Shown here piece by piece: positions 9,912-64,000 of a stretch of DNA of 64,000 nucleotides. Each line of letters starts with the position of its first letter. The first letter of the stretch is position 1. This DNA is from Mactromeris polynyma. Taxonomy: Eukaryota > Mollusca > Bivalvia > Venerida > Mactridae. The DNA lies in NCBI GenBank assembly GCA_032209605.1, contig JASFXZ010000001.1:27098619-27162618 (forward strand). Direction: 5' to 3'. The notes beneath the pieces were generated by a model that was given only the letters and a program-made list of their open reading frames with translations, was not told the DNA's origin and made no database searches. The translations under genes were made by a program, and so were the position numbers.

Positions 9912-9925
9912 AATCAGATGATATA

Positions 9926-22950: not shown

Positions 22951-22960
22951 TCATGTACAA
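20885..22960 (-). pseudogene. Non-LTR reverse transcriptase, frameshifted
   Basis: The N-terminal part (22960-22001) has the usual KAPGPDKIPTRLLK block, NYRPISLISVSCKVLEHII and HGFRK. The C-terminal part (21955-20885) has FSKAFDTVPHSRLLQKL, SGIPQGSVLGPLLF, the catalytic FADD (in ARLFADDCLLY) and AKYLGVTISSDLSW, followed by the thumb region and the C-terminal domain. About 45 bp between the two frames carry damage: a homopolymer frameshift in the T-run near 22025 (after HGFRK) and a small deletion just before FSKAFD near 21950. This is a CR1/jockey-group RT. The exact clade is not determined. Confidence 0.9.
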
Positions 22961-23268: not shown

Positions 23269-26200
23269 TGTAAGAAAATATTTGTTGCTGTTCATGATGG
23301 AGATGTAAATATTGTCAATAAATGTATAATTGAACCAATGACTGAAGGAAAACATCATGGACTGACAATTGAATGCTGCACGGATCAAGATTTAAAACTT
23401 GGATCCAATAGGATAACATGGTATGATTACATAGCATTGTCAGGACTGTGGCTCACAGCTTACGCATCTTTTAAAAATACTGTATATAATGGAGTGGTAA
23501 ATTTAATAGCAACATGAAAATGTTTGCAAATTCATAAAAGTGTAATTTTCCCTTTTGACAAAAGCATGGTTTTATACAATGTACTGTTCAAAATGTAACA
23601 ATACTGATTTTGGCTTGTAAAACATCTGAAATCACACAAAATTAGTGTAGACTACTGTTACTAGTGTATCCACTATGTCTATTGGTCAATATTCTCTAAA
23701 ACATGTTTTCATTGGCCAACTTGTAACCTCTAATTTGTTCAGTATTCTGAAGTAAATGAAAATGGAATATGCATATAAGTACTGCACAATATTTTGGCAA
23801 TCTAATTTTAGTAAGATTTAAAAATATGCATACAGTCTATAGCATTTTATAGTTGACAACAGAAACAAGAAATATCTTTAAAGGAGATAAACAGTGTAGA
23901 TAGAATGATGTCTTCCGGTATGTTAAATGAAATAATATTTTTTTAAACATGTTGAAAAATAAATCCTTACCAAAAATTAACTCAGATCTGTCTTATCAGG
24001 GTAATTTTATAAATGCTTAAACATATTTACTACTTCCGGCAAAATCAAACTGCTAACGAACTCATATCTTATGAAAACCCCATTGGGTGCCTCTTTAGTT
24101 AAAAAAGCCCGCTTTGAGGACAGCATATGGTTGGTAAAAATGTAGGTCTAAATCAATGCTACACCAAACAAGAAATATCTTTAAAAAAAATGGTCGGCGC
24201 AACTTGAAGTTTGCAAATTTGTTGCAATCTATAGGTTAAAATTTGTTGTACAACATAAAAGATGCCTAAATGTCATTCAATTATGCTATATAATACAGAA
24301 TTTCCAAGCCCTGTAAGGGGAGATCACTGCGTTTGAGACTGCATCAATCGCAACTTCTCGGCGGTATTCGACAGAGCCAATAATGCGGAGGTGTTCCGAA
24401 TGAGACGGCATAATAAATAACTCGATCCGTAGTGTGATTAGTCATAGACACAGTATAGTGTGTTTCAATATAGATCTAGTTCAACATTACTTATTGCATA
24501 AGTCGTGAACTCACACATCCATGTTGATAAACTTGTTACATAGCAATTTTCTGATTAAAAGAATATTAATGTTTGCGACTGGTACATAAAACCAAGAAAG
24601 TCTTCTAAATTCCAACACCGGACAATTCCCCGTTGTGATGAATAACAACACTACTTACTGGATAAATCTCGAAATACACTAGAAAATGTTAACCAATCTG
24701 CTTCAAGGCTACACGTATTTTTAAATTGAAGAGAAATGGCGCGAAATTGCGTTGGTGGTTAACGTAAGATTTGATTGGTTACAAAACACTGAATATGCAA
24801 TTAGCAAAACCATGTTAGTACGGCTGCAGTGTCTCAATCTTTGTTTCGAAGAAAAGATACTTATCGTCCCATGGTGATTTACATAACATTCTGATATGAA
24901 AATAGCGAGCATAACATGTAGCTAAAATAGATTGTTATTATATTAAGAGATTTCAAGTACATGTATATTATTATTATTTATAGTTGGTTTCAACAGAACT
25001 TAATTAGTACGAAATATTTTTGGCCATCCTCAAAAAATGTCTGTCTGTCCAAATCACAGGAGATTGTCATGAGTTCTCTCCCTTTATCTATTCTATATTA
25101 TGAGCTGTCCTGAGATTTCCGACCAAGTGGTCAAAATGATGTCACGTCAAAAACAGACGACAAAGTTTATTATGTCCTAATTGTTTACGCGCAATTGCTG
25201 TTCCACTGACCTTTCTTGTACAGCTTCCTCAACTATGTGCGTAACCATTGACGTCATGTAAACAATGTAGTACTCTGTTACTGGTTCACCGTTCTACTGC
25301 ATTGAACTGTCCACTACTGAGTGTTTACATATTTATGTTTTGAATTTGAAGTATTTTTTAATCATGAATGTATGACAGAAGCAGATGCGTTATAGATGCT
25401 CTCAATGAACTCTTGTTTCATATGTTCCCCACGCAGATCAAAGCACTATATAAAACAGTTTACAGTATCGAAGTATTTCAAAGTGGCTGATCTCCAAAAT
25501 ATTCACAATTTATTTAATAAGACAAAATTACCAATAACACATACTGTATATCTAAATCTTGGAGTACAAAGATGGAGTACAGAATATGAATCAACAAACA
25601 CCTGACATCATCAGCTGTACCAGGTAATAGAGTCCAGATGAAAATAACTAGCCAACAATTAGTTTTAATAGTTATTATTAGAGATCTAGATAATATATAA
25701 TAAAAAGCTAGAGAAATGTGAAATCTACTTATATCTCATTTAGCAAATATTTCATGACCGTGGTTATCTGCAAACGAAAATAAACTTGGACGCGCTCAGT
25801 ACGTTAGAGCTTAGTACGTTCTGTTTGGTTACCAATCTACCACAACCTTGCCTAAGACGAACGCGAGCTTTTCTTTAGTAAATTTATGTGTCATCAATAA
25901 TCCTGTGGTATGTTTTAAGTTTAAATCTCTATTTACTGTCATGATAACCAATATAAAAGCGAACCCATTTGAACCTATCCAGGTAGATCTACAGGAGATT
26001 TATTAGCATTTTAAAATAAACATACGAAAGCCTTGTGGTGAAATTTCAGCTTCCAAAATTCGCAAATTCAACTTCATAAATTCACGATTTCAAATGCACA
26101 AATTCGCAAATTCAACTAAACGAAACCATGATTTTAACATCTTGACCACTAGGTCGGAAATCTCATGACACGGATTATATATACAACCAAAGTTAGATAC

Positions 26201-28358
26201 AAATATTGTGGTGGGAGTACAGCAAACAAAGTTAGATACAAATATTGTGGTGGGAGTACAGCAAACAAAGTTACATACAAATATTGTGGTGGGAGTACAG
26301 CAAACAAAGTTACATACTAATATTGTGGTGGGAGGAGTACAGCAAACAAAGTTACATACAAATATTGTGGTGGGAGTACAGCAAACAAAGTTACATACAA
26401 ATATTGTGGTGGGAGTACAGCAAACAAAGTTACATACAAATATTGTGGTGGGAGTACTGCAAACAAAGTTACATACAAATATTGTGGTGGGAGTACAGCA
26501 AACAAAGTTACATACAAATATTGTGGTGGGAGTACAGCAAACAAAGTTACATACAAATATTGTGGTGGGAGGAGTACAGCAAACAAAGTTACATACAAAT
26601 ATTGTGGTGGGAGTACAGCAAACAAAGTTACATACAAATATTGTGGTGGGAGTACTGCAAACAAAGTTACATACAAATATTGTGGTGGGAGGAGTACAGC
26701 AAACAAAGTTACATACAAATATTGTGGTGGGAGTACAGCAAACAAAGTTACATACAAATATTGTGGTGGGAGGAGTACAGCAAACAAAGTTACATACAAA
26801 TATTGTGGTGGGAGTACAGCAAACAAAGTTACATACAAATATTGTGGTGGGAGGAGTACAGCAAACAAAGTTACATACAAATATTGTGGTGGGAGTACAG
26901 CAAACAAAGTTAGATACAAATATTGTGGTGGGAGTACAGCAAACAAAGTTACATACAAATATTGTGGTGGGAGTACTGCAAACAAAGTTACATACAAATA
27001 TTGTGGTGGGAGTACAGCAAACAAAGTTACATACAAATATTGTGGTGGGAGTACAGCAAACAAAGTTACATACAAATATTGTGGTGGGAGTACTGCAAAC
27101 AAAGTTACATACAAATATTGTGGTGGGAGTACAGCAAACAAAGTTACATACAAATATTGTGGTGGGAGTACTGCAAACAAAGTTACAAACAAATATTTTA
27201 AGAATGTCCTTACACATGAAGTCAGTTGACAAAGGTCAAGGTGACAGCAAAGTGGACAGTCATGTTTAAATTCAGAGGAGAAAAAAAATATAATTTTGTG
27301 CATAAAACTTGTTTCAGTGTGAATATTCATATGTGATCGGATGAAAAATGCACAATTGTGAACTGTAATTATATAAGCGATGGGGAAAAAAGTCGGAAAA
27401 AATGCGGTTTGGAATTGCTATGGCTTAACTAGTGAAAAACAAGAAGATGAAGACTTCTGTAAATTGTTATCTCAGTTTTTACCTTGACAATATGTTGTAC
27501 ATATGTTGTATGGGTGAGTAGCTTTGCTCAAATCTGAAATAAAATTTCTGTTCTGTTCTATAATTAAGTGAAACTATATTAGTAATTACTGTTTCCTTGG
27601 TTTCAAATGGTTTGAAATTGGAGTAACTTCACATCAAATTTTAGGCCAGTCATAGCCAGTTTTTCATAAAATTAACCTCGATACCGTTTTTCATAAAATT
27701 AACCTTGATACAGTTTTTCATAAAATTAACCTCGATACAGTTTTTCATAAAATTAACCTCGATACAGTTTTTCATAAAATTAACCTCGATACAGTTTTTC
27801 ATAAAATTAACCTCAATACAGTTTTTCATAAAATTAACCTCGATACAGTTTTTCATAAAATTAATCTCGATACAGTTTTTCATAAAATTAACCTTGATAA
27901 AGTTTTTCATAAAATTAACCTTCATACAGTTTTTCATAAAATTAACCTTCATACAGTTTTTCATAAAATTAACCTTCATACAGTTTTTCATAAAATTAAC
28001 CTTCATACAGTTTTTCATAAAATTAACCTTCATACAGTTTTTCATAAAATTAACCTTCATACTTTTTCATTTACTTAAAGCATTGCTGACATGGTGGAGG
28101 AATGTCATCACACATTTGTTGTCCTTACAAAGCAATCGCTTAAGACAGCATGGATCAAGTACGAGACGTGGTTAGCTTTACAGAAATCTCTGCGGGATTG
28201 TAAACTGTGTCTAGCATTGATATTGTTTGATGTTGACATATCAGTGGTGCTTGATGCACAATTCGGACTGCTTACACAGTCAATGATTATTCCTGTGGAC
28301 ACCAACAGCAATTCATGGCAAACAACAATGATAGAAAAGATGATACATCATATAAAAG
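23269..28358 (+). CDS. Exons 1-2 of the fusion gene: TIR domain 1
   Basis: Exon 23269-23420 encodes the first TIR strand and box (KKIFVAVHDGD, then GLTIECCTDQDLKLGSN, matching the RDF.PG loop of Toll-type TIRs). The codon split TG|C joins it to 28081-28358. That exon reads ITCIADMVEECHHTFVVLTK and then SLKTAWIKYETWLAL, matching the I..SI..S.K.VFVLS and WCKYE blocks of TLR2. The E of WIKYE is in the position of the catalytic or structural Glu of TIR domains. Box 3, usually FW, is replaced by NSWQTTMIEKMI. The domain is about 143 residues, a normal TIR length. Exon 1 begins at a Cys codon in phase 0, so the start codon lies upstream. Confidence 0.85.
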
Positions 28359-31300
28359 GTGTGTGTCAATTTCATTGTTGTAATGTTATTATCATAAAAG
28401 CGGTTGTTTTGACTGTCAAAGCTTGTGCCACTCATCTGAATCAATCTGTTGAATCTGTCAGTTCTATTTTTAGAATGGTATGTTATTTTTTATTAGGGGT
28501 GCGTGTCAATATTACTCATAATTATGAATGTATGTTGATACTACCTACAGTATAATACTTAGAGTTATCAATTACATTTATTACACTTTCATGGCTGCAA
28601 GATATAATCTTCAGAATCTGATAATTCACCTATCAATATTTTGCCCCAGGGAAGGGGGGGGGGGGGGGCGACAGCCTGACCCAGGGGAATAACACCATTT
28701 GTCTTTCTTTGGGTCTAATTCCTCACGGTATTGTAATACATGTATCTTGATTTTTGCAGAAGCCAAACCTGTGAAACCTATACAGATTGCTGCTAGTCTA
28801 TCAGTAGGGCAAGCCTGGAGCCATTTTACTGGATACGCAAAACATGTATTGCCAAGTGAGTCTACTTTCTTATGTCCAAGGTAGGGGCAGTGGTTCCGGG
28901 GTAGATGGTTTGACTCTGAACCCCACTTTGAATGCGTTTTGATAAAAACTGTTGCAATCCCTGTACTTGTTGCATGTATTGAACCCATGAAGCAGTCATC
29001 TAGGGTGATTAGTATAAGTTTTAAGAAATTGTGATTCACAATTGCCAAAAAATAAATAAATAAATTTAAACTAACATCTTATGAAATAAATTATGTGGAA
29101 TACATGAATCAGTTTTAAAAAAGAAATATACTCAGTACATTTAAAAACGCACATTTTTTACCAACCATACTTCTTTAAATTTCATTTTTTACTTTTGAAA
29201 CTCATTTTTTATGAAAATACTTGTCGATTGTCATGACATTTAGCATACATGTTGCATACACATGCAATAATATTGTGTCAAGTTCTTTTCTTGTATCCTG
29301 AAAGTCATTTAATGAAAATTTAGAAATCCCATTCATTGCGCTATTAAATGTGCTGAGTATTTTAATAAAACTTTAAATCACAAATCAGTTTTTTGTGCAC
29401 TCAATTACATACAATTTTGTTACACAAAATGTCTCACAATTCTCTTTTGTGATGGGAATAAAAATGACTTTAGCTTTCCTTCTGTAAGGAAATCGCAAAT
29501 AGTGATGCTAGTATATTCTTTCTCCAGTAATATAGCTTTTCTCCAGTAACATAGCTTTTCTCCAGTAACATACCGTTTTAGCTCACGAGCACAAAGTACT
29601 CATGGTGAGCTTTAAGGATTGTTGGATGTCCATTGTCGTGCGGTGAGCATCGTCTGTCGTGCATCAACATTTTCTTTAAACAACATCTCCTCCTATACCA
29701 CTGAATGGATTTTATCCAAGCTTCACAGGAATGATCCTTGGGTGGGCCTTGTTCAAAGTTGCATAAACCGTTCCAGTCTAATGCATAAGTTGGTCATAGG
29801 AGCTAAAAATAGATTTCAAAAGGGTAACTTTGAAAATCTTCTTATCCTTAACAATAAGGCCTACAGCTTTGATATTTGGTGTGTAACGTTGTCTAATGGT
29901 CCTTTTACAAGATTGCATAAATCATTAAATTCCATAAAAACATGGCCACCAGGGATGGGGCCGTGTTCCCTATATGTATATTGTGACATCTCTTCCTAAA
30001 CCACTAAATAGATTTTGACAACATTTCCTAGAAATGATCATTTGGGGGGGGGGGGGTCCTCTTTCAAAGTTATATAATGGTTCCGGTCTGTTGCATAAGT
30101 AGGTTTTAGGAGCTAACATAGATTTTAAAAGTGAAAAATTTGAAAATCATTTTGTGTCAAACCATACGATTCGGTTTGGTATTTGGTGTGTAGCATTGCC
30201 TAGTGGTCCTCTTACAATATTGCATAAATTATTAAGTTCCGTCAAAAAAACATGGCAGCAGGGATGGGCAGTGTTTGGTATTTGGTGTGTAGCATTGTCT
30301 AGTGGTCCTCTTACAATATTGCATAAATTATTAAGTTCCGTCAAAAAACATGGCAGCAGGGATGGGCAGTGTTTGGTATTTGGTGTGTAGCTTTGCCTAG
30401 TGGTCCTCTTACAATATTGCATAAATTATTAAGTTCCGTCAAAAAACATGACAGCAGGGATGGGCAGTGTTTGGTATTTGGTGTGTAGCATTGCCTAGTG
30501 TTCCTCTTACAATATTGCATAAATTATTAAGTTCCGTCAAAAAACATGGCAGCAGGGATGGGCAGTGTTTGGTATTTGGTGTGTAGCATTGCCTAGTGAT
30601 CCTCTTACAATATTGCATAAATTATTAAGTTCCGTCAAAAAACATGACAGCAGGGATGGGCAGTGTTTGGTATTTGGTGTGTAGCATTGCCTAGTGGTCC
30701 TCTTACAATATTGCATAAATTATTAAGTTCCGTCAAAAAACATGGCAGCAGGGATGGGCAGTGTTTGGTATTTGGTGTGTAGCATTGTCTAGTGGTCCTC
30801 TTACAATATTGCATAAATTATTAAGTTCCGTCAAAAAACATGGCAGCAGGGATGGGCAGTGTTTGGTATTTGGTGTGTAGCATTGTCTAGTGGTCCTCTT
30901 ACAAGATTGAATAAATTATTAGGTTCTGTAATAAAACATGGTCGCATACCTTTTCTCCAAAAATAAATCTTAAACTTTTAAATTCAGGTCTTGCAATAAG
31001 AGATTATAAACAAACAGAATCTGTTGTTATTTGTATAATTATGTTTATTTTGAACAGATGTTGATCAAAGTTGGCTTATAAGATTTTTAGTAATGAAGGT
31101 TGACTGACTATTGGAATACAAACATTACATTCAAACTTTGTAGGAATAGTTCTGAGAAGTTGTTTAGGAAAATAACTAAAACATCTTTAAAATATGACCT
31201 TCTGTTTGAATGATATAGCATGAACAAGGTCACTGAATTTTCCTACATTTTACAAAACTATTAAAGCATATTTTCGTAAGAAAACTAGAGATCAGAATTT

Positions 31301-46300: not shown

Positions 46301-49300
46301 GTCCTGACCCTGTTGTCTTGCCTACATCCCTGTCATATGTCCTGAACCTGTTGTCTTGCCTACAACCCTTTCATATGTCCTGACCCTGTTGTCTTGCCTA
46401 CATCCCTTTCATATGTCCTGACCCTGTTGTATTGCCTTCATCCCTGTCATATGTCCTGAACCTGTTGTCTTGCCTACAACCCTTTCATATGTCCTGACCC
46501 TGTTGTCTTGCCTACATCCCTTTCATATGTCCTGACCCTGTTGTATTGCCTTCATCCCTGTCATATGTCCTGAACCTGTTGTCTTGCCTACAACCCTTTC
46601 ATATGTCCTGACCCTGTTGTCTTGCCTACATCCCTGTCATATGTCTTGACCCTGTTGTCTTGCCTACATCCCTTTCATATGTCCTGACCCTGTTGTCTTG
46701 CCTACATCCCTGTCATATGTCCTGACCCTGTTGTATTGCCTTCATCCCTGTCATATGTCCTGAACCTGTTGTCTTGCCTACATCCCTGTCATATGTCCTG
46801 ACCCTGTTGTCTTGCCTACATCCCTGTCATATGTCCTGACCCTGTTGTCTTGCCTACATCACTGTCATATGTCCTGACCCTGTTGTCTTGCCTACATCAC
46901 TGTCATATATCCTGAATTCTTAGTCTTTCCTACATCCCTGTCATATATCCTGAATTCTTAGTCTTGCCTACATCCCTGCCATATATCCTGAATTCTTAGT
47001 CTTTCCTACATCCCTGTCATATATCCTGAATTCTTAGTCTTGCCTACATCCCTGCCATATGTCCTGAATTCTTAGTCTTGCCTACATCCCTGTCATATGT
47101 CCTGAATTCTTAGTCTTGCCTACATCCCTATCATATGTCCTGAATTCTTAGTCTTGCCTACATCCCTGTCATATATCCTGAATTCTTAGTCTTGCCTACA
47201 TCCCTTCCATATATCCTGAATTCTTAGTACTGCCTACATCCCTGTCATATGTCCTGAATTCTTAGTCTTGCCTACATCCCTATCATATGTCCTGAATTCT
47301 TAGTCTTGCCTACATCCCTGTCATATATCCTGAATTCTTAGTCTTGCCTACATCCCTGTCATATGTCCTGAATTCTTAGTCTTGCCTACATCCCTGTCAT
47401 ATATCCTGAATTCTTAGTCTTGCCTACATCCCTTCCATATATCCTGAATTCTTAGTACTGCCTACATACCTGTCATATGTCCTGAATTCTTAGTCTTGCC
47501 TACATCCCTGTCATATATCCTGAATTCTTAGTCTTGCCTACATCCCTGTCATATATCAACAAGTTGTCGTAAGTGATGAATCTGTTGTTTTGCTTACATT
47601 CTTGTCATATGTGCTGTCACATCACTGCCATCTGCCCTGAATATGTTGTCTTGCCTATTTCCTTGTCATATGTGCTGAATCTATTGTCTTGTCACATCAC
47701 TGCCATCTGTCCTGAATATGTTGTCTTGCCTATTTCCTTGTCATATGTGCTGAATCTGTTGTCTTGTCACATCACTCCCATCTGTCCTGAATATGTTGTC
47801 TTGCCTATTTCCTTGTCGTAAGTGCTGAATCTGTTGTCTTGTCACATCACTGCCATCTGTCCTGAATATGTTGTCATGCCTACATCCCTGTCATATGTGC
47901 TGAATCTGTTGTCTTGTCACATCACTGCCATCTGTCCTGAATATGTTGTCTTGCCTATATCCTTGTCGTAAGTGCTGAATATGTTGTCTTGCCTACATCC
48001 CTGTCGTAAGTACTGAATCTGTTGTCTTGCCTACATCCCTGTAATATGTCCTGAATATGTTGTCTTGCCTACATCCTTGTCGTAAGTGCTGAATATGTTG
48101 TCTTGCCTACATCCTTGTCGTAAGTGCTGAATCTGTTGTCTTGCCTACATCCCTGTCATATGTCCTGAATATGTTGTCTTGTCTACATCCCTGTCGTAAG
48201 TGCTGAATATGTTGTCTTGCCTACATCCCTGTCGTAAGTGCTGAATATGTTGTCTTGCCTACATCCCTATCGTAAGTGCTGAATATGTTGTCTTGCCTAC
48301 ATCCCTGTCGTAAGTGCTGAATATGTTGTATTGCCTACATCCTTGTCATATGTCCTGAATATGTTGTCTTGCCTACATCCTTGTCGTAAGTGCTGAATCT
48401 GTTGTCTTGCCTACATCCCTGTCGTAAGTGCTGAATATGTTGTCTTGCCTACATCCCTATCGAAAGTGCTGAATATGTTGTCTTGCCTACATCCCTGTCG
48501 TAAGTGCTGAATATGTTGTATTGCCTACATCCTTGTCATATGTCCTGAATATGTTGTCTTGCCTACATCCTTGTCGTAAGTGCTGAATATGTTGTCTTGC
48601 CTACATCCCTGTCATATGTCCTGACCCTGTTGTATTGCCTACATCCCTGTCATATGTCCTGACCCTGTTGTCTTTCCTACATCCCTGTCATATATCCTGA
48701 ATTCTTAGTCTTGCCTACATCCCTGCCATATATCCTGAATTCTTAGTCTTTCCTACATCCCTGTCATATATCCTGAATTCTTAGTCTTGCCTACATCCCT
48801 GCCATATGTCCTGAATTCTTAGTCTTGCCTACATCCCTGTCATATGTCCTGAATTCTTAGTCTTGCCTACATCCCTGTCATATGTCCTGAATTCTTAGTC
48901 TTGCCTACATCCCTGTCATATATCCTGAATTCTTAGTCTTGCCTACATCCCTGTCATATGTCCTGAATTCTTAGTCTTGCCTACATCCCTGTCATATATC
49001 CTGAATTCTTAGTCTTGCCTACATCCCTTCCATATATCCTGAATTCTTAGTACTGCCTACATCCCTGTCATATGTCCTGAATTCTTAGTCTTGCCTACAT
49101 CCCTGTCATATATCCTGAATTCTTAGTCTTGCCTACATCCCTGTCATATATCAACAAGTTGTCGTAAGTGATGAATCTGTTGTTTTGCTTACATTCTTGT
49201 CATATGTGCTGTCACATCACTGCCATCTGTCCTGAATATGTTGTCTTGCCTATTTCCTTGTCATATGTGCTGAATCTATTGTCTTGTCACATCACTGCCA

Positions 49301-52300
49301 TCTGTCCTGAATATGTTGTCTTGCCTATTTCCTTGTCATAAGTGCTGAATCTGTTGTCTTGTCACATCACTGCCATCTGTCCTGAATATGTTGTCTTGCC
49401 TATTTCCTTGTCGTAAGTGCTGAATCTGTTGTCTTGTCACATCACTGCCATCTGTCCTGAATATGTTGTCTTGCCTATTTCCTTGTCGTAAGTGCTGAAT
49501 CTGTTGTCTTGTCACATCACTCCCATCTGTCCTGAATATGTTGTCTTGCCTATTTCCTTGTCATATGTGCTGAATCTGTTGTCTTGTCACATCACTGCCA
49601 TCTGTCCTGAATATGTTGTCATGCCTACATCCCTGTCATATGTGCTGAATCTGTTGTCTTGTCACATCACTGCCATCTGTCCTGAATATGTTGTCTTGCC
49701 TATATCCTTTTCGTAAGTGCTGAATATGTTGTCTTGCCTACATCCCTGTCGTAAGTGCTGAATCTGTTGTCTTGCCTACATCCCTGTTATATGTCCTGAA
49801 TATGTTGTCTTGCCTACATCCTTGTCGTAAATGCTGAATATGTTGTCTTGCCTACATCCTTGTCCTAAGTGCTGAATCTGTTGTCTTGCCTACATCCCTG
49901 TCATATGTCCTGAATATGTTGTCTTGTCTACATCCCTGTCGTAAGTGCTGAATATGTTGTCTTGCCTACATCCCTGTCGTAAGTGCTGAATATGTTGTCT
50001 TGCCTACATCCCTATCGTAAGTGCTGAATATGTTGTCTTGCCTACATCCCTGTCGTAAGTGCTGAATATGTTGTCTTGCCTACATCCTTGTCATATGTCC
50101 TGAATATGTTGTCTTGCCTACATCCTTGTCGTAAGTGCTGAATCTGTTGTCTTGCCTACATCCCTGTCGTAAGTGCTGAATATGTTGTCTTGCCTACATC
50201 CCTATCGAAAGTGCTGAATATGTTGTCTTGCCTACATCCCTGTCGTAAGTGCTGAATATGTTGTATTGCCTACATCCTTGTCATATGTCCTGAATATGTT
50301 GTCTTGCCTACATCCTTGTCGTAAGTGCTGAATCTGTTGTCTTGCCTACATCCCTGTCATAAGTCCTGAATATGTTGTCTTGCCTACATTCTTGTCGTAA
50401 GTGCTGAATATGTTGTCTTGCCTACATCCCTGTCATATGTCCTGAATATGTTGTCTTGCCTACATCCTTGTCGTAAGTGGTGAATATGTTGTCTTGCCTA
50501 CATCCCTGTCATATGTCCTGACCCTGTTGTATTGCCTACATCCCTGTCATATGTCCTGACCCTGTTGTCTTGCCTACATCACTGTCATATATCCTGAATT
50601 CTTAGTCTTTCCTACATCCCTGTCATATGTCTTGACCCTGTTGTCTTGCCTACATCCCTTTCATATGTCCTGACCCTGTTGTCTTGCCTACATCCCTTTC
50701 ATATGTCCTGACCCTGTTGTCTTGCCTACATCCCTGTCATATGTCCTGACCCTGTTGTATTGCCTTCATCCCTGTCATATGTCCTGAACCTGTTGTCTTG
50801 CCTACATCCCTGTCATATGTCCTGACCCTGTTGTCTTGCCTACATCCCTGTCATATGTCCTGACCCTGTTGTCTTGCCTACATCACTGTCATATGTCCTG
50901 ACCCTGTTGTCTTGCCTACATCACTGTCATATATCCTGAATTCTTAGTCTTTCCTACATCCCTGTCATATATCCTGAATTCTTAGTCTTGCCTACATCCC
51001 TGCCATATATCCTGAATTCTTAGTCTTTCCTACATCCCTGTCATATATCCTGAATTCTTAGTCTTGCCTACATCCCTGCCATATGTCCTGAATTCTTAGT
51101 CTTGCCTACATCCCTGTCATATGTCCTGAATTCTTAGTCTTGCCTACATCCCTGTCATTTGTCCTGAATTCTTAGTCTTGCCTACATCCCTGTCATATAT
51201 CCTGAATTCTTAGTCTTGCCTACATCCCTGTCATATGTCCTGAATTCTTAGTCTTGCCTACATCCCTGTCATATATCCTGAATTCTTAGTCTTGCCTACA
51301 TCCCTTCCATATATCCTGAATTCTTAGTACTGCCTACATCCCTGTCATATGTCCTGAATTCTTAGTCTTGCCTACATCCCTGTCATATATCCTGAATTCT
51401 TAGTCTTGCCTACATCCCTGTCATATATCAACAAGTTGTCGTAAGTGATGAATCTGTTGTTTTGCTTACATTCTTGTCATATGTGCTGTCACATCACTGC
51501 CATCTGTCCTGAATATGTTGTCTTGCCTATTTCCTTGTCATATGTGCTGAATCTATTGTCTTGTCACATCACTGCCATCTGTCCTGAATATGTTGTCTTG
51601 CCTATTTCCTTGTCATATGTGCTGAATCTGTTGTCTTGTCACATCACTCCCATCTGTCCTGAATATGTTGTCTTGCCTATTTCCTTGTCGTAAGTGCTGA
51701 ATCTGTTGTCTTGTCACATCACTGCCATCTGTCCTGAATATGTTGTCATGCCTACATCCCTGTCATATGTGCTGAATCTGTTGTCTTGTCACATCACTGC
51801 CATCTGTCCTGAATATGTTGTCTTGCCTATATCCTTGTCGTAAGTGCTGAATATGTTGTCTTGCCTACATCCCTGTCGTAAGTGCTGAATCTGTTGTCTT
51901 GCCTACATCCCTGTTATATGTCCTGAATATGTTGTCTTGCCTACATCCTTGTCGTAAGTGCTGAATATGTTGTCTTGCCTACATCCTTGTCGTAAGTGCT
52001 GAATCTGTTGTCTTGCCTACATCCCTGTCATATGTCCTGAATATGTTGTCTTGTCTACATCCCTGTCGTAAGTGCTGAATATGTTGTCTTGCCTACATCC
52101 CTATCGTAAGTGCTGAATATGTTGTCTTGCCTACATCCCTGTCGTAAGTGCTGAATATGTTGTCTTGCCTACATCCCTATCGTAAGTGCTGAATATGTTG
52201 TCTTGCCTACATCCCTGTCGTAAGTGCTGAATATGTTGTATTGCCTACATCCTTGTCATATGTCCTGAATATGTTGTCTTGCCTACATCCTTGTCGTAAG

Positions 52301-55300
52301 TGCTGAATCTGTTGTCTTGCCTACATCCCTGTCGTAAGTGCTGAATATGTTGTCTTGCCTACATCCCTATCGAAAGTGCTGAATATGTTGTCTTGCCTAC
52401 ATCCCTGTCGTAAGTGCTGAATATGTTGTATTGCCTACATCCTTGTCATATGTCCTGAATATGTTGTCTTGCCTACATCCTTGTCGTAAGTGCTGAATCT
52501 GTTGTCTTGCCTACATCCCTGTCATAAGTCCTGAATATGTTGTCTTGCCTACATCCTTGTCGTAAGTGCTGAATATGTTGTCTTGCCTACATCCCTGTCA
52601 TATGTCCTGAATATGTTGTCTTGCCTACATCCTTGTCGTAAGTGGTGAATATGTTGTCTTGCCTACATCCCTGTCATATGTCCTGATAATGTTGTCTTGC
52701 CTACATCCTTGTCGTAAGTGGTGAATATGTTGTCTTGCCTACATCCTTGTCGTAAATGCTGAATATGTTGTCTTGCCTACATCCTTGTCGTAAGTGCTGA
52801 ATATGTTGTCTTGCCTACATCCTTGTCGTAAGTGCTGAATATGTTGTCTTGCCTACATCCTTGTCGTAAGTGCTGAATATGTTGTCCTGCCTACATCCCT
52901 GTCATATGTCCTGAATATGTTGTCTTGCCTACATCCTTGTCGTAAGTGCTGAATATGTTGTCTTGCCTACATCCTTGTCATAAGTACTGAATATGTTGTC
53001 CTGCCTACATCCCTGTCATATGTAATTAAAAGTCTAGTATTGCCCGTATGGATGTGTAGCACAGTCATAGATACGTATGTCTGCATTCAAACCATGATTA
53101 ATACGGTGTTGGCCCGATGCTTTTTCGCCCTTTTTATTCTATAGTAAAACTACAAGTTTTGCACTGGAATTGTGAACTCCACAATAGGATCCCAGCTATT
53201 TGCAATATCTAGTTTTCCAATACATCACTATCACAGTAAATCCACACAAATAAAACACCACCATCAACTGGTAACTTTTCTGCTATTATTCATGTATACA
53301 GTCTCTGTCAAAATTTTCCATACACAACTGTCAACATGGCCGAAACGGTGCACTTTCTAAATCATTCCATGCAAAAATGTAGTCCTGCAAAACAAAGAAA
53401 AAGCACTGTTTCAGTGATCAGAAATGACACAAAAGTTACACAGTAACAATAAATACAGCTGACATTGAATCAGTACAGCCACAGACAGCCGTAAATCTGG
53501 GACTTCAGCATTTCTAAGAACTACTTCCTAGGCTACGACGACCCGGAAGTACTTGCTCACCAGGCCGACACCATTCATGTATCTTGAGCAGACGATTTAT
53601 TCAGCATTGCCACATAAGCCAATCAAATAAAAAGTTATCAATGTCGAAGCAAATTTTTGGCATCCGAACTGTTTGTAAACTGGATCTGATTTGTATGAAA
53701 TCTGCAAGTTGTAAAATGGACTGGAATGTAGAAAAGGCAGCTTAATACGGTTGCGCTGAAAAGCTAGTAGGGGTCAGGACAGGTTAATAGTTGATCTATA
53801 TGTTTTACATTACAGGTCGCTTAGAAGAGATTCGAGGAGGAACAGGTGGCAGAAAGCTTTATAAGAAGCTGTTTATTACAGTTCCAAGTTCTTGTGTGTC
53901 AAAAACTCTAAGAGCTTTAGACAAAGATGAAAATGGCCGACTGATTGATGAATCATTTTACCAGCTGGACATCGATTATAAGACAAAGGCAGTGGGTGGA
54001 GTCAGGAATCGGGACTACCAGCTTATAACCTATGTTATAAAGTTAGAAGATAAGGTTAGTAGTAGTGTGGCTATTTTTGACAATAAAATGTGTGGACATG
54101 ACATCCTTTGTAAACTAGACCATGCTAAAGAATATGCAGTTTATAAGTATCAATCTGATTGGTTGATTTTTGTTCAAAACTGTCAAATGTAAGAAAGGTA
54201 GCCCAGTATCCCACGGTTGATGAATGCAGTTTAACTGAATGGTGAATCTTTAGATATAGGAGATAAGTTGAACTACACTGGTGTGTCCCTTAAAATTCTT
54301 TGTCAAGATAATTAGCTCAATATATTTATATTTATATATATAACATTGTATAATTGGATGATTCATGTTAACTGTCCTTAATTTTATGGTGTTTCTTGTC
54401 TTAATGTTGAAGTTAACTTATCAATTTATTTTTTTGCAGGAAGTTGTGGTGGCAATGGAATACCCAAATGCTGTATTGTGTTTACAAGAAATGAGCCAAT
54501 TATCTCCCCTGTCGGGACTATCCAGTAAAGATCTCCATCAAGAAGCCTGGAAATTCAAAGAACTTGCCCAGAATATAATTGATAACACATCAACTGTGAG
54601 AAACAAAGCAAAATTTATCTATTATGATGGTAAGAAAGAGTTATAGAGCGCTTACATATCTTTTTTTTGCTCTGCTCTGATTCATGAAAGTTCAAAGAGA
54701 AACTTTAGATGATGGGGTCAGATGGGTCACAGATTGTTGGTCACAACTGTCCAGACATTTGAGGACTTGATATATAAGTAAATATTGGAATCTATGATGA
54801 AGCAATATGTAAGAATATTACATACTTCTACTGCAAACAATATACAGTGTACTGTAAAACCCACCATGCAGAACTTTTCTGAATGAAACTCTATTATGTT
54901 CTTTCTTGAGCACTCATCTTAACTTCCTAACAATTAATTGTTAAACTGGAAGCTGTGTTGGGTTACCTGGTTGCCATGGTTACATAGGTCAAAGTACATG
55001 GACACCATGACCAATGTTGTCATTACCCGGTAGTGTTATACAGCCTTGTACAGTTTTACAGAGTCAAATATATGAAGTATACATAAGTGATGACTGAGTT
55101 ACAGAGCTCACTTCTGTTGATCTACTACCACTTCCTAAAGGGAATCCACTGCATAGGCAGTTTATAAGTTCCTCTTATTTGATATTATTTAGCTACCTAT
55201 GGGTTTAAACACTTGAACAGATGACTGATAAGCTGTTACTGATCACCCAAATAATTAAAAATGCAGGACTTTTGTTGTCCAACATATTTAGACATTATTT

Positions 55301-56401
55301 CATCAAATGCACTATGAAGGCAAGTAGGATTTTGTAAAGATAGTTAAATAAACATTTAAGGGCTGAAACTTAATTAACACTTGGCCAACGAAATCACTGA
55401 ATCAGAAAATAAAGACTGAAATCGGTTAAAATACATGATGAATGATAAGACATATTAATTGTTTATATTGCATCAATAAGACAAGTATTCATAATAAGTA
55501 AGCATGAAGGAGGCTTTGTGGTGGCTTGAAGGAGGCTTCGTGGTGGCTTGAAGGAGGCTTCGTGGTGGCTTGAAGGAGGCTTCCTGGTGGCTTGAAGGAG
55601 GCTTTGTGGTGGCTTGAAGGAGGCTTCGTGGTGGCTTGATGGAGGCTTTGTGGTGGCTTGAAGGAGGCTTTGTGGTGGCTTGAAGGAGGCTTCGTGGTGG
55701 CTTGAAGGAGGCTTTGTGGTGGCTTGATGGAGGCTTCGTGGTGGCTTGAAGGAGGCTTCGTGGTGGCTTGAAGGAGGCTTTGTGGTGGCTTGAAGGAGGC
55801 TTCGTGGTGGCTTGAAGGAGGCTTTGTGGTGGCTTGAAGGAGGCTTCGTGGTGGCTTGAAGGAGGCTTTGTGGTGGCTTGAAGGAGGCTTCGTGGTGGCT
55901 TGAAGGAGGTTTTGTGGTGGCTTGACTCCTCATCAGAATGTTGTGTGTTCAAGTTCTTTGTTGAGAGGGGCTTGATCTTGTACATCACTATCTCTGAATG
56001 TTAGATGAGCACTGGTTAATAACCTAGGAAATGCTTATCATGAGTGATTAAACTGGTATAACTGTAAGAACTTGTGTCATAATAAAAAAAACACCAAATA
56101 CCGCGAGACCTAAAGTAACTGAACATTGCGGAAAACAGTATACAGTCAGGGCCGTAAATTGACTCCCCTGGAAGGGGAGGCACCCCAGCGAGCGGAGCAA
56201 GGCGAAAAAAAATTTGGACCCTTTTTAGACAAAAAATGATTTTTTTTTCAGCCCGCAATAGGAGGCAACTGCCTACATGCCTCCATGTAATTTAAGGCCC
56301 TGACAGTTTATATACATATTTATTTTTCAGACTCTATATTGACAGTGGCTAAAGCTATGAAACAAGTTTTGGAAGCTGAAGATGCTGATATGTTTTTCTA
56401 G
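23269..56401 (+). CDS. TIR-STING-TIR-STING fusion gene, 13 visible exons (5' exon missing)
   Basis: Coding exons: 23269-23420, 28081-28358, 28760-28855, 31327-31460, 32609-32710, 35568-35720, 37431-37524, 42023-42075, 42778-43192, 45889-45996, 53816-54054, 54440-54629 and 56331-56401 (TAG). Every junction is in phase, every acceptor is AG, and all donors are GT except GC after 32710. The sum is 2,085 nt, 694 residues plus stop. The domains are TIR1 (residues about 1-143 of the visible protein), STING ligand-binding domain 1 (144-354), TIR2 (355-492) and STING domain 2 (493-694). No membrane segments and no C-terminal TBK1/IRF3-recruiting tail are seen, as expected for invertebrate TIR-STINGs. 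STING senses cyclic dinucleotides; TIR domains signal or degrade NAD+. The alternative is two tandem genes split at 42075/42778. The in-phase splice and the lack of a usable start before TIR2 favour fusion. The first AATAAA after the stop is at 57755-57760. Confidence 0.85.
23421..26183. other. Intron 1 of the fusion gene, part without arrays
   Basis: No exon recognised. CAAGAAATATCTTTAAA occurs near 23867 and 24170, suggesting old dispersed repeats. TTCTCTCCCTTTATC near 25077 belongs to the same short inverted-repeat family as 37868-37930. Confidence 0.4.
26184..27195 (+). repeat. 39-bp minisatellite, about 26 copies
   Basis: The unit contains AAAGTTACATACAAATATTG and TGGTGGGAGTACAGCAAAC. 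About seven units carry an extra GGA (42 bp), so the frame is kept throughout. Both strands stay open for more than 330 codons as an artefact. Located in intron 1. Confidence 0.95.
27657..28063 (+). repeat. 27-bp minisatellite ending 17 bp before exon 2
   Basis: About 15 units built on TTTTTCATAAAATTAACC plus a variable CTCGATACA/CTTCATACA end. A left block (CTCGATA) and a right block (CTTCATA) form two sub-families. The last unit runs directly into the polypyrimidine/acceptor region of exon 28081-28358. Confidence 0.95.
28640..28730. repeat. Poly-G run and dispersed repeat fragment
   Basis: A run of about 15 G precedes CGACAGCCTGACCCAGGGGA, which repeats the fragment at 4220-4310. It lies in the short intron between exons 2 and 3. 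Confidence 0.5.
28760..42075 (+). CDS. Exons 3-8 of the fusion gene: STING ligand-binding domain 1
   Basis: Six exons, about 210 residues. Exon 3 has GQAWSHFTGYAKHVLP, aligned with human GLAWSYYIGYLRLILP; it keeps Ser162, Gly166 and Tyr167 but has His for Tyr163. Exon 4 matches the following helix and the LPLDCGVP strand (MEFNLIPQSA). Exon 5 has the lid-region KDRPY, aligned with human KDRVY, keeping Arg238 and Tyr240. Exon 6 has GQIPNTL, where human has EYATPLQT; Pro264 is kept, while the Glu260 and Thr263 positions are not. Exons 7 and 8 supply the last helices (RIKFIRFDN, YKLLLKSIKEE). Exon 5 uses a GC donor. If exon 8 is not spliced, the protein ends after one more codon. Confidence 0.85.
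28875..29072 (+). mobile_element. tRNA-derived SINE with (AAATA)n tail
   Basis: It shares the central block of the window's SINE family (AAGCAGTCATCTAGGGTGAT, TTTTAAGAAATTGTGA) and ends in AATAAATAAATAAATTT. The head (GTAGATGGTTTGACTCTGAA) is a degenerate B-box region. Confidence 0.6.
29573..30171. repeat. Degenerate dispersed repeat preceding the 98-bp array
   Basis: The stretch has TCTGTCGTGCATCAACATTT, then AACATCTCCTCCTATACCAC, then GGAATGATCCTTGGGTGGGC. Copies diverged from the 98-bp unit appear at about 29,870 and 30,170 (TTTGGTGTGTAACGTTGTCT). Similar dispersed sequence occurs at 31,500 and 57,400. The family looks like a common invertebrate intronic repeat; name unknown. Confidence 0.5.
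30172..30945 (+). repeat. 98-bp tandem repeat, about eight copies
   Basis: Starts of CATGGCAGCAGGGATGGGCA are spaced 98 bp apart (30251, 30349, 30447 and so on). The unit also contains TTTGGTATTTGGTGTGTAGC and TTAAGTTCCGTCAAAAAA. It is a recent amplification of a sub-segment of the dispersed repeat directly upstream. Located in intron 3. Confidence 0.95.
31630..32054 (+). repeat. 38-bp minisatellite, about 11 copies
   Basis: The unit contains ACAGAAGGAGATGTGCATAT and ATTGTCTGCATGTTCTAC. Because 38 is not a multiple of three and no frame has a stop, all three forward frames stay open for 140-210 codons. They are artefacts. Located in intron 4. Confidence 0.95.
32215..32430 (+). mobile_element. 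tRNA-derived SINE
   Basis: It has an A-box-like ATAGTGGCCATACTGACTCC, a B box GTTTGAATCCC near 32271, and the central block CTGGTTAGTAACCTAGGAAG with CAGTCATC and AGTGATA. This is the best-preserved copy of the family in the window. Located in intron 4. Confidence 0.75.
32922..33078. mobile_element. Pogo-type MITE (copy 2), TA target duplication
   Basis: A 157-bp relative of 3626-3800. It starts CAGTGAGACATCATTT. Its reverse complement starts CAATCAGACTTCATTT. TA flanks both ends (32920-32921 and 33079-33080). Shared interior: AACCTTCTATC, AATAAATATCA, TGATGTATCTTTTTA. Confidence 0.75.
33127..35415 (+). repeat. 26/34-bp minisatellite
   Basis: The short unit contains TTACATGAGCTGAGTGTGTC (26 bp). 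The long unit adds TTTCACTG (34 bp). The middle third (33,340-34,150) is almost pure short units in two homogeneous blocks (GAGCTGAG, then GAGAGGAG). The right third is almost pure long units with mixed variants. Located in intron 5. Confidence 0.95.
36227..37167 (+). repeat. 45-bp minisatellite, about 21 copies
   Basis: The unit contains TTCATTCTATAGAAGGGATA and AAGGGGGAGAACTC, with a stop-free frame of 15 residues per unit. Blocks are duplicated (about 36,740-36,900 recurs at about 36,920-37,080). Related inverted sequence follows at 37,205-37,265. Located in intron 6. Confidence 0.95.
37866..37932. repeat. Short inverted repeat related to the 45-bp unit
   Basis: GAGTTCTCTCCCTTTATC and its exact reverse complement GATAAAGGGAGAGAACTC lie about 27 bp apart. 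A further partial copy follows. The same motif occurs near 25,077, 37,205 and 43,366 and, in reverse orientation, inside the 45-bp array. It looks like the arms of a small hairpin element. Confidence 0.75.
38279..41489 (+). repeat. 20-bp minisatellite, about 160 copies
   Basis: The unit is AACAACACAATGGGGGTAGG, with G/A alternation (GGGGATAGG, GGTAGAAAC, AACGACAC). The left part is rich in GTAGAAAC units, the right part in AACGACAC units. Single-base deletions shift the frame without creating stops, so three overlapping minus-strand frames of 592-1043 codons appear. They are artefacts. Located in intron 7. Confidence 0.97.
41490..42022. other. Intron 7 end
   Basis: AT-rich sequence. TTTGGTGGAAGA and TCTCCACCAAAC near 41,620-41,665 form a small stem. 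The acceptor is TATTTTGTAG before 42023. Confidence 0.5.
42076..42777. other. Intron between the two TIR-STING units
   Basis: It starts GTATAA, so unspliced reading adds one Val and stops (TAA 42079-42081). It contains no AATAAA; only two ATTAAA variants were seen (near 42,331 and 42,648). It holds no promoter-like element that I can recognise and no tandem array. It ends TATACAG. Confidence 0.6.
42778..43192 (+). CDS. Exon 9 of the fusion gene: TIR domain 2
   Basis: A single 415-nt exon encodes a whole, diverged TIR of about 138 residues: first strand GSSVCVMNEETD, helix AEEVKTYLRENNIELVEY, then FESLRKAVSKAQWLVIILSD (the S.K.VFVLS-like block), and a C-terminal part with KLCVVPILVDIEEHEIP (the ILILLEPI..IP block of TLRs). 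The W..YE motif of TIR1 is replaced by PESLLMMLRIRTFLYE. The first in-frame ATG (42826-42828) lies inside the first strand, so independent initiation here would remove part of the fold. The acceptor TATACAG and donor GTAAGT are both good. Confidence 0.85.
43557..44512 (+). repeat. 85-bp tandem repeat, about 11 copies
   Basis: The unit contains GCACTCTGTTGTTATGGTGA, GGGCAGTGTCATTAAAGAGG and TTGTTTAAAAGACTGTTG, with an 85-bp period. Located in intron 9. It ends 6 bp before a pogo-like MITE. Confidence 0.95.
44519..45209. mobile_element. Pogo/Tigger-like MITE, 691 bp, TA target duplication
   Basis: The left end is CAGTGGATACTCATTGTGTC. The right end read in reverse starts CAGTTGATGTCGACATTG. 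TA flanks both sides (44517-44518 and 45210-45211). The ends are rich in GTCGACA, repeated inside (for example near 44,565 and 45,135). No transposase frame. Confidence 0.7.
45889..56401 (+). CDS. Exons 10-13 of the fusion gene: STING ligand-binding domain 2
   Basis: About 202 residues in four exons. Exon 10 has HQGLAWAYVLNYLEVTLEDL, aligned with human GLAWSYYIGYLRLILPEL; it has Ala for Ser162, keeps Tyr163, Asn replaces Gly166, and Tyr167 is kept. Exon 11 has KLFITVPSSC (human RLYILLPLDC) and VRNRDYQLITY, which keeps Arg238 and Tyr240. Exon 12 has MEYPNAVLCL around the Pro264 position and KAKFIYYDG, matching human CRLIAYQE. Exon 13 is the last helix (AKAMKQVLEAEDADMFF) and TAG. It ends where the ligand-binding domain ends, with no C-terminal tail. 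Intron 10 is about 7.8 kb, nearly all minisatellite. Confidence 0.9.
46073..53023 (+). repeat. 7-kb, 38-bp satellite-like array in intron 10 with higher-order duplication
   Basis: About 183 units of 38 bp built on TTGTCTTGCCTACATCCCTG plus TCATATGTCCTGA. Homogeneous blocks alternate: a GACCCTG block, a GAATTCTTAG block, a block with TCACATCACTGCCATCTG, and a TCGTAAGTGCTGAATATG block. The block order recurs. The rare junction ATATATCAACAAGTTGTCG is found at 47551, 49146 and 51423, marking three copies of a multi-unit segment (spacings 1,595 and 2,277 bp). Confidence 0.97.
53024..53815. other. Intron 10 end
   Basis: Single-copy sequence with a degenerate SINE-like fragment near 53,045-53,110 (GTGTAGCACAGTCATAGATA). 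No exon is seen before the acceptor TTTTACATTACAG of exon 11. Confidence 0.5.
54630..55503. other. Intron 12, part without arrays
   Basis: AT-rich intron sequence. No coding or mobile feature recognised. Confidence 0.45.
55504..55924 (+). repeat. 22-bp minisatellite, about 19 copies, fused to a SINE head
   Basis: The unit is GGAGGCTTCGTGGTGGCTTG plus AA, with TTT/TTC and GAA/GAT variants. The last unit continues without a break into the SINE (GTGGCTTGACTCCTCATCAG). Stop-free frames of 156-171 codons on the minus strand are artefacts. Located in intron 12. Confidence 0.95.
55912..56095 (+). mobile_element. tRNA-derived SINE joined to the 22-bp array
   Basis: It has ACTCCTCATCAGAATGTTGT, a B-box-like GTGTTCAAGTTC, and the central block ACTGGTTAATAACCTAGGAA followed by GAGTGATTAAAC and TAAGAACTTGT. 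This is the same family as 32215-32430, a few bases from a short A-rich tail. Confidence 0.7.
56147..56302. mobile_element. Short hAT-like MITE with ACAGT target duplication
   Basis: It starts CAGGGCCGTAAATTGA. Its reverse complement starts CAGGGCCTTAAATTACA. ACAGT lies directly outside both ends (56142-56146 and 56303-56307). The interior is GC-rich (GGCACCCCAGCGAGCGGAGC). The 156-bp element sits 28 bp before the last coding exon. Confidence 0.75.
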
Positions 56402-62000: not shown

Positions 62001-64000
62001 ATCTACACACACACATATCTCACTGACTGAGTGTCATTGCACTATCTACACACACATCTCACAGACTGAGTGTCATTACACTATCTACACACACACACAT
62101 CTCACAGGCTGAGTGACAGTACATTATCTACACACACACATATCTCACAAACTGAGTCTCAGTACATTATCTACACACACACATATCTCACAGACTGAGT
62201 CTCAGTACATTATCTACACACACACATATCTCACAGACTGAGTCTCAGTACATTATCTACACACACACATATCTCACAGACTGAGTCTCAGTACATTATC
62301 TACACACACACATATCTCACAGACAAAGTGTCAGTACACTGTCAACACACACACACATCTCACAGGCTGAGTGTCAGTGCACTATCTACACACACACCTC
62401 ACAGACTGAGTGTCAGTACACTATCTACACACACACACATCTCACAGGCTGAGTGACAGTACACTATCTACACACACACATATCTCACAGACTGAGTCTC
62501 AGTACATTATCTACACACACACATATCTCACAGACTGAGTGTCAGTACACTATCTACACACACACACATCTCACAGGCTGAGTGACAGTACACTATCTAC
62601 ACACACACATATCTCACAGACTGAGTCTCAGTTCAATATCTACCCACACACATATCTCACAGACAAAGTGTCAGTGCACTATCTACACACACATCTCACA
62701 GACTGAGTCTCAGTATATTATCTACACACACACATATCTCACAGACTGAGTGTCATTGCACTATCTACACACACATCTCACAGACTGAGGGTCAGTACAC
62801 TATCTACACACACACACATCTCACAGGCTGAGTGACAGTACATTATCTACACACACACATATCTCACAAACTGAGTCTCAGTACATTATCTACACACACA
62901 CATATCTCACAGACTGAGTCTCAGTACATTATCTACACACACACATATCTCACAGACTGAGTCTCAGTACATTATCTACACACACACATATCTCACAGAC
63001 AAAGTGTCAGTACACTGTCAACACACACACATATCTCACTGACTGAGTGTCAATACACTGTCAACATACACACACATCTCACAGACTGAGTGTCAGTACA
63101 CTATCTACACACACACACATCTCACAGACTGAGTGTCAGTACACTATCAACACACACATCTCCAGACTAAGTGTCAGTACTCTATCAACACACACATCTC
63201 ACAGACTGAGTGTCAGTACACTATCTACACACACACACATATCTCACAGACTGAGTGTCAGTACACTATCTACACACACACACACATCTCACAGACTGAG
63301 TGTCAGTACACTATCTACACACACACACATATCTCACAGACTGAGTGTCAGTACACTATCTACACACACACATATCTCACAGACTGAATGTCAGTACACT
63401 ATCTACACACACATATCTCACAGACTGAGTGTCAGTACACTATCTACACACACACATATCTCACAGACTGAGTGTCAGTACACTATCTACACACACACAC
63501 ACATCTCACAGACTGAGTGTCAGTACACTATCAACACACGCATCTCACAGACTGAGTGTCAGTAAACTATATACACACACACACACACATATCTCACAGG
63601 CTGAGTGTCAGTACACTATCTACACACACACACATCTCACAGACTGAGTGTCAGTACCTTATCTACACACACACATATCTCACAGACTGAGTGTCAGTAC
63701 CCTATCTAGACACATACATCTTACCGACTGAGTGTCAGTAAACTATCTACACACACACACACACATATCTCACAGGCTGAGTGTCAGTACACTATCTACA
63801 CACACACACATCTCACAGACTGAGTGTCAGTACACTATCTACACACACACACACACATCTCACAGACTGAGTGTCAGTAAACTATCTACACACACACACA
63901 CATATCTCACAGGCTGAGTGTCAGTACCCTATCTACACACATACATCTTACCGACTGAGTGTCAGTAAACTATCTACACACACACACACACACATATCTC
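59050..64000 (+). repeat. CA-rich minisatellite running off the window
   Basis: Units of about 36-50 bp contain CTCACAGACTGAGTGTCAGT and ACACTATCTACA followed by a variable (CA)n. Unit-length changes come mostly from the CA run and from CATATCTC/CATCTC. A block at about 61,600-62,340 recurs at about 62,420-63,010. Many frames of 60-170 codons are artefacts. The array continues beyond 64,000. Confidence 0.97.

Follow-up and report, generated by a model that had tools for sequence, protein, structure and literature searches.

In this work we present an analysis of a TIR-STING gene of the bivalve Mactromeris polynyma, located in the window, by which we mean the whole 64,000-nucleotide stretch examined (C1:27,098,619-27,162,618, contig JASFXZ010000001.1) of a 793 Mb assembly. 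The window has thirteen + strand exons (23,269-56,401) with compatible phases; joined, they form a frame of 697 amino acids (aa) with no internal stop, in which exons E1-E8 form unit 1 (TIR and a full STING ligand-binding domain) and E9-E13 form unit 2 (a second TIR and STING). This agrees with the initial annotation, which had read thirteen exons of consistent phase in the order TIR-STING-TIR-STING from the letters alone. Four introns are common to both units in place and phase, namely those between TIR and the first STING helix (phase 1), between this helix and the ligand domain (phase 1), in the middle of the ligand domain (phase 0) and the last one (phase 1), and unit 1 has three extra introns. 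Identity between the two units of the window is 15% for TIR and 20% for STING.

The profile search of the translation, suggested with that annotation as a check, placed Pfam STING_LBD above the cut-off in both units, with expectation values (E) of 2.7e-21 in unit 1 (profile positions 4-180 of 182) and 1.9e-19 in unit 2; the TIR domains pass only when scanned alone. On whole units the TIR_2 matches of unit 1 (4.1e-05, 24.5 bits) and unit 2 (6e-06, 27.2 bits) stay under the cut-off of 28, and in separate scans TIR-1 passes PF01582 (22 vs cut-off 21.3 bits) and TIR-2 passes TIR_2 (29.8 vs 28 bits). A scan of E1 with E2 gave TIR_2 at 8.5e-06 and TIR at 0.00015, and a scan of E9 gave TIR_2 at 9.4e-07 on 139 residues from 42778. 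For TIR-2 alone the predicted fold had a pLDDT (predicted local distance difference test) of 46, too low to be of use. For both units the best PDB match is the oyster TIR-STING 6wt6 (1.4e-18 for unit 1, 2.5e-14 for unit 2). The prok_STING profile reached 0.11 in unit 2 (12.9 vs cut-off 27.1 bits), with no match listed in unit 1.

The same architecture is predicted in other bivalves. A search of a protein collection with the joined 697-residue product at E <=1, with scoring limited to the 7,998 candidates that had the most words in common with it, found four proteins: Ruditapes philippinarum LOC132749004 (710 aa, 46% identity over 99% of the query), Mya arenaria LOC128219915 isoform X2 (728 aa, 40% over 99%), an entry from source lgn (713 aa, 38% over 99%; longest contig 2,420 bases, five member sequences) and Mactra antiquata ACF0H5_020922 (572 aa, 58% over 83%), whose sequence starts only where TIR-1 ends. 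Four proteins were among the matches listed by a profile search; the new one was Crassostrea virginica LOC111100289 isoform X3 (690 aa, 21 member sequences), and Mya arenaria was not among them. Unit 2 alone (305 aa) as query of the protein search gave no match at E <=1, and of the 50 rows listed after re-alignment 49 start in unit 1, absent TIR rows there carrying no information. At E <=0.1 Pfam recognised two STING_LBD and two TIR_2 stretches in each of P0002-P0005, four of the five relatives; in Mactra antiquata, the record without TIR-1, it recognised two STING_LBD stretches and no TIR. Weak prok_STING matches under the cut-off occurred in three relatives (best 1.3e-05, Crassostrea virginica). 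The four-domain order, for which a survey of related molluscs had been suggested as a check, was thus recovered by protein searches in Ruditapes, Mya, the lgn entry and Crassostrea virginica, Mactra lacking only TIR-1.

The product shares with animal TIR-STING an animal-type STING ligand-binding domain, a TIR located N-terminal to STING and, by hydropathy, the absence of membrane helices; it departs from the one TIR and one STING per chain of that class, as two of each are present in P0002-P0005 and in the window model. No window of 19 residues with Kyte-Doolittle hydropathy >=1.6 was found in the five relatives. The product of our locus has eight such windows, which all start between residues 90 and 97, within TIR-1, and reach at most 1.84; on hydropathy only they are read as a core strand, not a membrane segment, so that the earlier statement on the lack of membrane segments holds.

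Table 1. Exons of the doubled TIR-STING gene and other features of the window (positions counted from its first letter)
Feature	Position	Strand	Evidence or description
E1: TIR-1 first half, starts in phase 0	23269-23420	+	Splice sites, translation; aligns with N-termini of P0002-P0004
E2: TIR-1 second half, with W-x3-E motif (WIKYE)	28081-28358	+	Motif in 6/6 TIR-1
E3: STING-1 first helix (AWSHFTGY)	28760-28855	+	Splice sites, translation, pocket alignment
E4: STING-1 ligand-binding domain, first part	31327-31460	+	Pfam STING_LBD 2.7e-21 (joined unit)
E5: STING-1 ligand-binding domain, middle; GC-AG donor	32609-32710	+	Splice sites, Pfam
E6: STING-1 ligand-binding domain, third part with insert	35568-35720	+	Translation, Pfam, alignment
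E7: STING-1 ligand-binding domain, late helix	37431-37524	+	Translation, Pfam
E8: STING-1 C-terminal helix	42023-42075	+	Pfam match of the unit reaches profile position 180/182; Mactra linker supports the join
Putative unit-joining intron, one-chain reading, 693 bases	42076-42768	+	No phase-0 first coding exon of unit 2 found inside
E9: linker and TIR-2, without W-x3-E, BB-loop region shortened	42769-43192	+	Pfam TIR_2
E10: STING-2 first helix (GLAWAYVLNY)	45889-45996	+	Splice sites, translation, alignment
E11: STING-2 ligand-binding domain, first part	53816-54054	+	Pfam STING_LBD 1.5e-12 on E11-E13
E12: STING-2 ligand-binding domain, second part, with Glu260 equivalent (MEYPN)	54440-54629	+	Pfam, alignment
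E13: STING-2 C-terminal helix and TAG stop	56331-56401	+	Phase-1 junction as at E7/E8
Mutator-like region	8662-13233	+	MULE (Mutator-like element) transposase 0.0099, Ulp1 protease 0.00084, both weak, under cut-off
66-base tandem repeat, 28 copies	10882-12740		Between MULE and Ulp1 matches; in frame a 22-residue repeat
Non-LTR (long terminal repeat) retroelement reverse transcriptase, two frames	20885-22960	-	RVT_1 5.7e-22 and, under cut-off, 2.8e-05
Minisatellite, 20-base unit, 161 copies	38280-41488		In E7-E8 intron
Minisatellite, 38-base unit, 183 copies	46072-53023		In E10-E11 intron
Minisatellite, 43-base unit, 116 copies	59053-63988		Occupies the final 5 kb of the window

Whether both units are translated together depends on the junction after E8, and several observations weigh against a single chain. 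Read without splicing, E8 continues as Val-stop at 42,076-42,081 (TAA 42079-42081), fitting a separate unit 1. On a score built on human frequencies and applied here to a clam, the joining donor TCG/GTATAA has -4.21 bits, the other ten GT donors range from +1.26 to +6.43, and 34.7% of the 4,564 GT dinucleotides of the window score as well as or above it. Past the unit-1 stop, the variant poly(A) signal ATTAAA occurs at 42,331 and 42,649. The exons of unit 1 are without a start codon, and no convincing first exon was found upstream, where the N-termini of the relatives begin a few residues before E1; the retroelement directly upstream of the first TIR exon may be hiding the first coding exon or have displaced it. 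Finally, three or possibly four of the five relatives come from gene prediction, in which neighbours can be merged wrongly.

The linker speaks for the join. After the shared KEEC, 18 residues precede TIR-2 (VCV...) both in Mactra antiquata and in the window joined at 42075/42769, as the initial annotation had placed it. Aligned to Mactra, the linker has no gap with acceptor 42,769 (score 98) and a three-residue gap with 42,778 (score 89); both acceptors share one further gap, inside TIR-2, and two other acceptors that were tried are out of frame. Owing to this fit of length, the weak E8 donor is probably used, perhaps inefficiently. An alternative exon joining E7 to E9 was also looked for, and the only one found on C1, of 26 bases, was taken for chance.

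These data can also be read as two neighbouring TIR-STING genes, with unit 1 stopping at 42,079-42,081 and unit 2 having its own promoter and first exon. Judged from the window alone, this would be the better reading: the E8 stop lies at a place homologous to the unit-2 stop, with the same phase-1 intron before it, and the donor strength and the two ATTAAA signals mentioned above point the same way. The poly(A) pattern as a whole is uninformative for either reading, as AATAAA is absent from the 690 bases past the unit-1 stop, while neither AATAAA nor ATTAAA occurs in the 1.1 kb that follow the unit-2 stop, where the first AATAAA appears at 57,755. In 41,488-42,768 no phase-0 first coding exon of unit 2 was found, and there is one phase-2 candidate (41,829-41,890), which could serve acceptors 42,786 or 42,816. 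One phase-0 and one phase-2 candidate were returned from 37,525-38,280, on the other side of the repeat array that extends to 41,488. Against two genes the missing phase-0 exon is weak evidence, since such candidates occur elsewhere at 0.77 per kb, and it weighs little because the first exon of unit 1 escaped the scans as well. The two-gene reading was set aside because the relatives carry both units as single predicted proteins; the 2,420-base contig of one of them is too short for introns of the size seen in the window, and the linker length fits the join. The 2.1 kb uninterrupted frame in this lgn contig of 2.4 kb looks like complementary DNA, an intronless gene being the other possibility. 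An identical predictor merge across species, handed down from an ancestor that predates the oyster-clam split without a real fusion, seems unlikely on the sequences compared. We therefore rate two genes as improbable and find it very likely, from the comparison of predicted proteins, that both units are translated as one chain at the window locus.

A third arrangement combines the two, with one transcription unit giving two products in a regulated ratio: without splicing at E8 a short TIR1-STING1 protein would end at 42,081, and with splicing the four-domain protein would be made. Such a short unit-1 product is possible, given the stop one codon past a very weak donor. The placement of this donor directly before the stop suits the idea, and so does a second locus described below, where the donor is better, yet an in-frame stop follows two codons on. 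A stop soon past a donor is, however, not unusual for intron sequence, and the records found in other species are of the long form, their isoforms not having been examined. Two regulated products thus appear rather unlikely, though less so than two genes.

The second doubled locus was found on C113, where we examined C113:10,284,001-10,354,000 (L006-L012). A genome-wide family search, which missed the window's own exons, gave one STING match at E <=0.001, on C113. Its order is a unit-1-like TIR, STING exons and a C-terminal exon, followed by unit-2-like TIR and STING exons, all divergent from the window. Compared with the window, STING-1 scored 54-56 bits and STING-2 50-52, first against second units only 4-10; for TIR, like with like gave 38-40 and 25-26 bits, and first against second units -1 to 11. 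The best solved relative of unit 1 on C113 is the oyster TIR-STING 6wt6/6wt7. The E8 equivalent is open to the donor ACT/GTAAGT (+1.97 bits, top 3.9% of GT), and a scan of 2.49 kb for exons of the needed phases returned it alone. With strict thresholds, which were set after seeing the exon, 0.04 such exons are expected by chance per 2.49 kb (reverse strand 0.03). With loose thresholds chance exons of this quality number 0.37 per 2.49 kb, and in C113 unit 2 no exon for the first half of the ligand domain was recognised, so that this copy may be incomplete; both points tell against the single-chain reading. A first-exon scan of 30,000-32,450 on C113 gave, in phase 0, a one-codon candidate at 30,029 and the E8 equivalent itself, and five candidates in phase 2. 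Within 100 kb on either side of the window no further copies were seen.

The history of the doubling was followed in trees of 17 STING and 14 TIR domains. A branch (96/95) groups all seven STING-1 domains, and the seven STING-2 domains are likewise grouped; six TIR-1 and seven TIR-2 domains are separated by a branch of 99/98, with a long-branch warning for the oyster TIR-1. Forcing together the two STING domains of the oyster protein was rejected by the approximately unbiased test (p-AU 0.0099), as was the C113 pair (0.0021), these pairs having been picked after inspection of the trees. As first and second units separate in the trees, duplication and pairing precede the split between Pteriomorphia (oyster) and Heteroconchia (clams), with a single origin of the four-domain architecture before that split. 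In the trees the window adjoins Mactra (identity 64% for STING-1 and 75% for STING-2), which places the animal probably in or near the mactrids, and the bivalve proteins listed are its orthologues or paralogues. Tandem duplication, fusion and strong divergence of the halves, as first proposed, are supported by five relatives predicted as one chain and by this separation. The notion that unit 2 is a decaying remnant could draw on the degenerate TIR-2, not recognised by Pfam on C113 (E <=1) or in Mactra (E <=0.1). We consider it highly implausible, as all five unit-2 exons are open in the window, STING-2 is better conserved than STING-1 between window and Mactra, and GLAWAYV-NYL is kept in 6/7 STING-2 domains.

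The halves differ consistently in catalytic-type motif and ligand pocket, an observation that adds to the initial annotation. In human STING numbering, position 162 is Ser in 7/7 STING-1 and Ala or Asn in 7/7 STING-2, and position 166 is Gly in all seven STING-1 and Asn in all seven STING-2. Arg232 is present in 5/7 STING-1 and 0/7 STING-2, and Glu260 in 1/7 and 6/7, respectively. Arg238 and the aromatic residue at 167 were found in all 14 STING domains compared. The division is blurred by the oyster protein, whose STING-1 keeps Glu260 without Arg232 and whose STING-2 has Gln260, by C113 STING-1, which is without Arg232, and by the single oyster TIR-STING, which has Gly at 162. In the TIR domains, the Trp and Glu of W-x3-E, with the catalytic-type helix C glutamate of TIR enzymes cleaving nicotinamide adenine dinucleotide (NAD), are found in 6/6 TIR-1 (the Mactra record is without the domain) and in none of the seven TIR-2, which are also shorter in the BB-loop region. 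TLR2, a signalling TIR, has W-x3-E too, and for this reason the motif is no proof of enzymatic activity. In bacterial TIR-STING, glutamate E84 is relied upon, according to PMC9402430.

From these sequence features we consider it fairly probable that bivalves have a TIR1-STING1-TIR2-STING2 receptor, a single cytosolic chain of ~700 residues with a built-in asymmetric pocket. In the STING proteins known so far, a single cyclic dinucleotide sits between two identical copies. In the proposed receptor the pair would be formed by the two different STING domains of a single chain, STING-1 supplying the Ser162-type wall and, in most species, Arg232, STING-2 the Glu260-type contact, and both of them Arg238 and the aromatic at 167. 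Ligand-driven closure would bring TIR-1, which kept W-x3-E, against TIR-2, which lost it and could act as a scaffold or brake, and stacking of closed units would then start signalling or NAD cleavage. The parts of this scheme differ in strength: for the built-in STING1-STING2 pair the chances appear evenly balanced, and that TIR-1 is the only enzymatic TIR is put forward tentatively. Equally tentative is the wider proposal that the symmetric homodimer has been replaced by a single-chain asymmetric pair, with a shared pocket for an asymmetric or new cyclic nucleotide and one working TIR set against a pseudo-TIR.

Conventional pairing between chains (STING-1 with STING-1, STING-2 with STING-2), in which doubling only raises valency for filament building, has a model in bacterial TIR-STING, described in PMC9402430 as a filament of two-fold symmetric dimers. 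We hold it to be somewhat unlikely, as valency alone needs neither STING domains that differ at complementary pocket positions across species nor the loss of W-x3-E in 7/7 TIR-2. If the built-in asymmetric pair is real, it would suit cyclic nucleotides produced by the numerous cGAS-like enzymes of bivalves; predating the oyster-clam split, it would be for STING what kinase-pseudokinase pairs are for kinases.

The individual units resemble known proteins. Vertebrate STING (TMEM173) shares the ligand-binding fold, Arg238 and the aromatic at 167, and differs in having four membrane helices instead of TIR, with a single ligand domain in each chain. The oyster TIR-STING (Crassostrea gigas, 6wt6/6wt7) has, like the window units, TIR before STING, and its TIR has W-x3-E; unlike the window product, CgSTING is, according to PMC8218723, one unit of 396 aa that comprises a single TIR and a single ligand domain. 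Bacterial TIR-STING, an effector of CBASS (cyclic oligonucleotide-based antiphage signalling system), e.g. Sphingobacterium faecium STING, also places TIR before a cyclic-dinucleotide-binding STING domain, but is a single unit of the bacterial STING type, whereas both window units give animal STING_LBD matches of 1e-19 or lower. In PLoS Biol 2023 (PMC10732462), eukaryotic TIR-STING is reported as rare and described as single fusions, and the animal form is argued to have arisen independently.

The repetition of the whole unit in one chain, for which the initial annotation had known no animal precedent, therefore holds as a predicted structure and loses its uniqueness. LOC132749004, LOC128219915 and LOC111100289 have the same four-domain order in one predicted chain, and ACF0H5_020922 has it without TIR-1; all four records are named only uncharacterised or hypothetical. 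Among the matches listed from open-licence literature we found no description of a doubled TIR-STING and no mention of the three LOC numbers, ACF0H5_020922 not having been searched for. By sequence, the doubled architecture is not a local novelty: it is older than the oyster-clam split, and databases already contain it under uncharacterised entries.

Symmetric homodimers are the accepted form of STING receptors. With a conserved doubled chain it becomes possible to test directly whether asymmetry and covalent fixation are compatible with a STING pocket, and also whether a fixed pocket sets ligand specificity in animals rich in cGAS-like enzymes; PMC9980059 gives >200 cGAS-like proteins for some bivalves. 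It also raises the question why one TIR of two loses the catalytic-type motif while its partner keeps it, and indicates an early elaboration, within bivalves, of animal TIR-STING, a type reported as rare.

Besides the very long minisatellites in introns of the window gene (Table 1), the introns of the C113 pair also have long tandem arrays, with other repeat units. A dispersed repeat, 75% identical over 679 columns, is shared by window 29600-30300 (E3-E4 intron) and L009:311-973 (C113 E7-E8 intron), and part of it is amplified in the window as a 98-base tandem unit at 30174-30941. Another stretch, 41693-41933 and L009:1696-1930 (71% identical over 249 columns), is located upstream of window E8 and downstream of its C113 equivalent and is probably a mobile element inserted independently. 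The Mutator-like region of Table 1 is possibly the remains of a transposon of this type. On C113, L010:1512-1777 and L010:2472-2737 form a direct repeat of 266 columns, 99% identical, flanking exon 12 of the pair.
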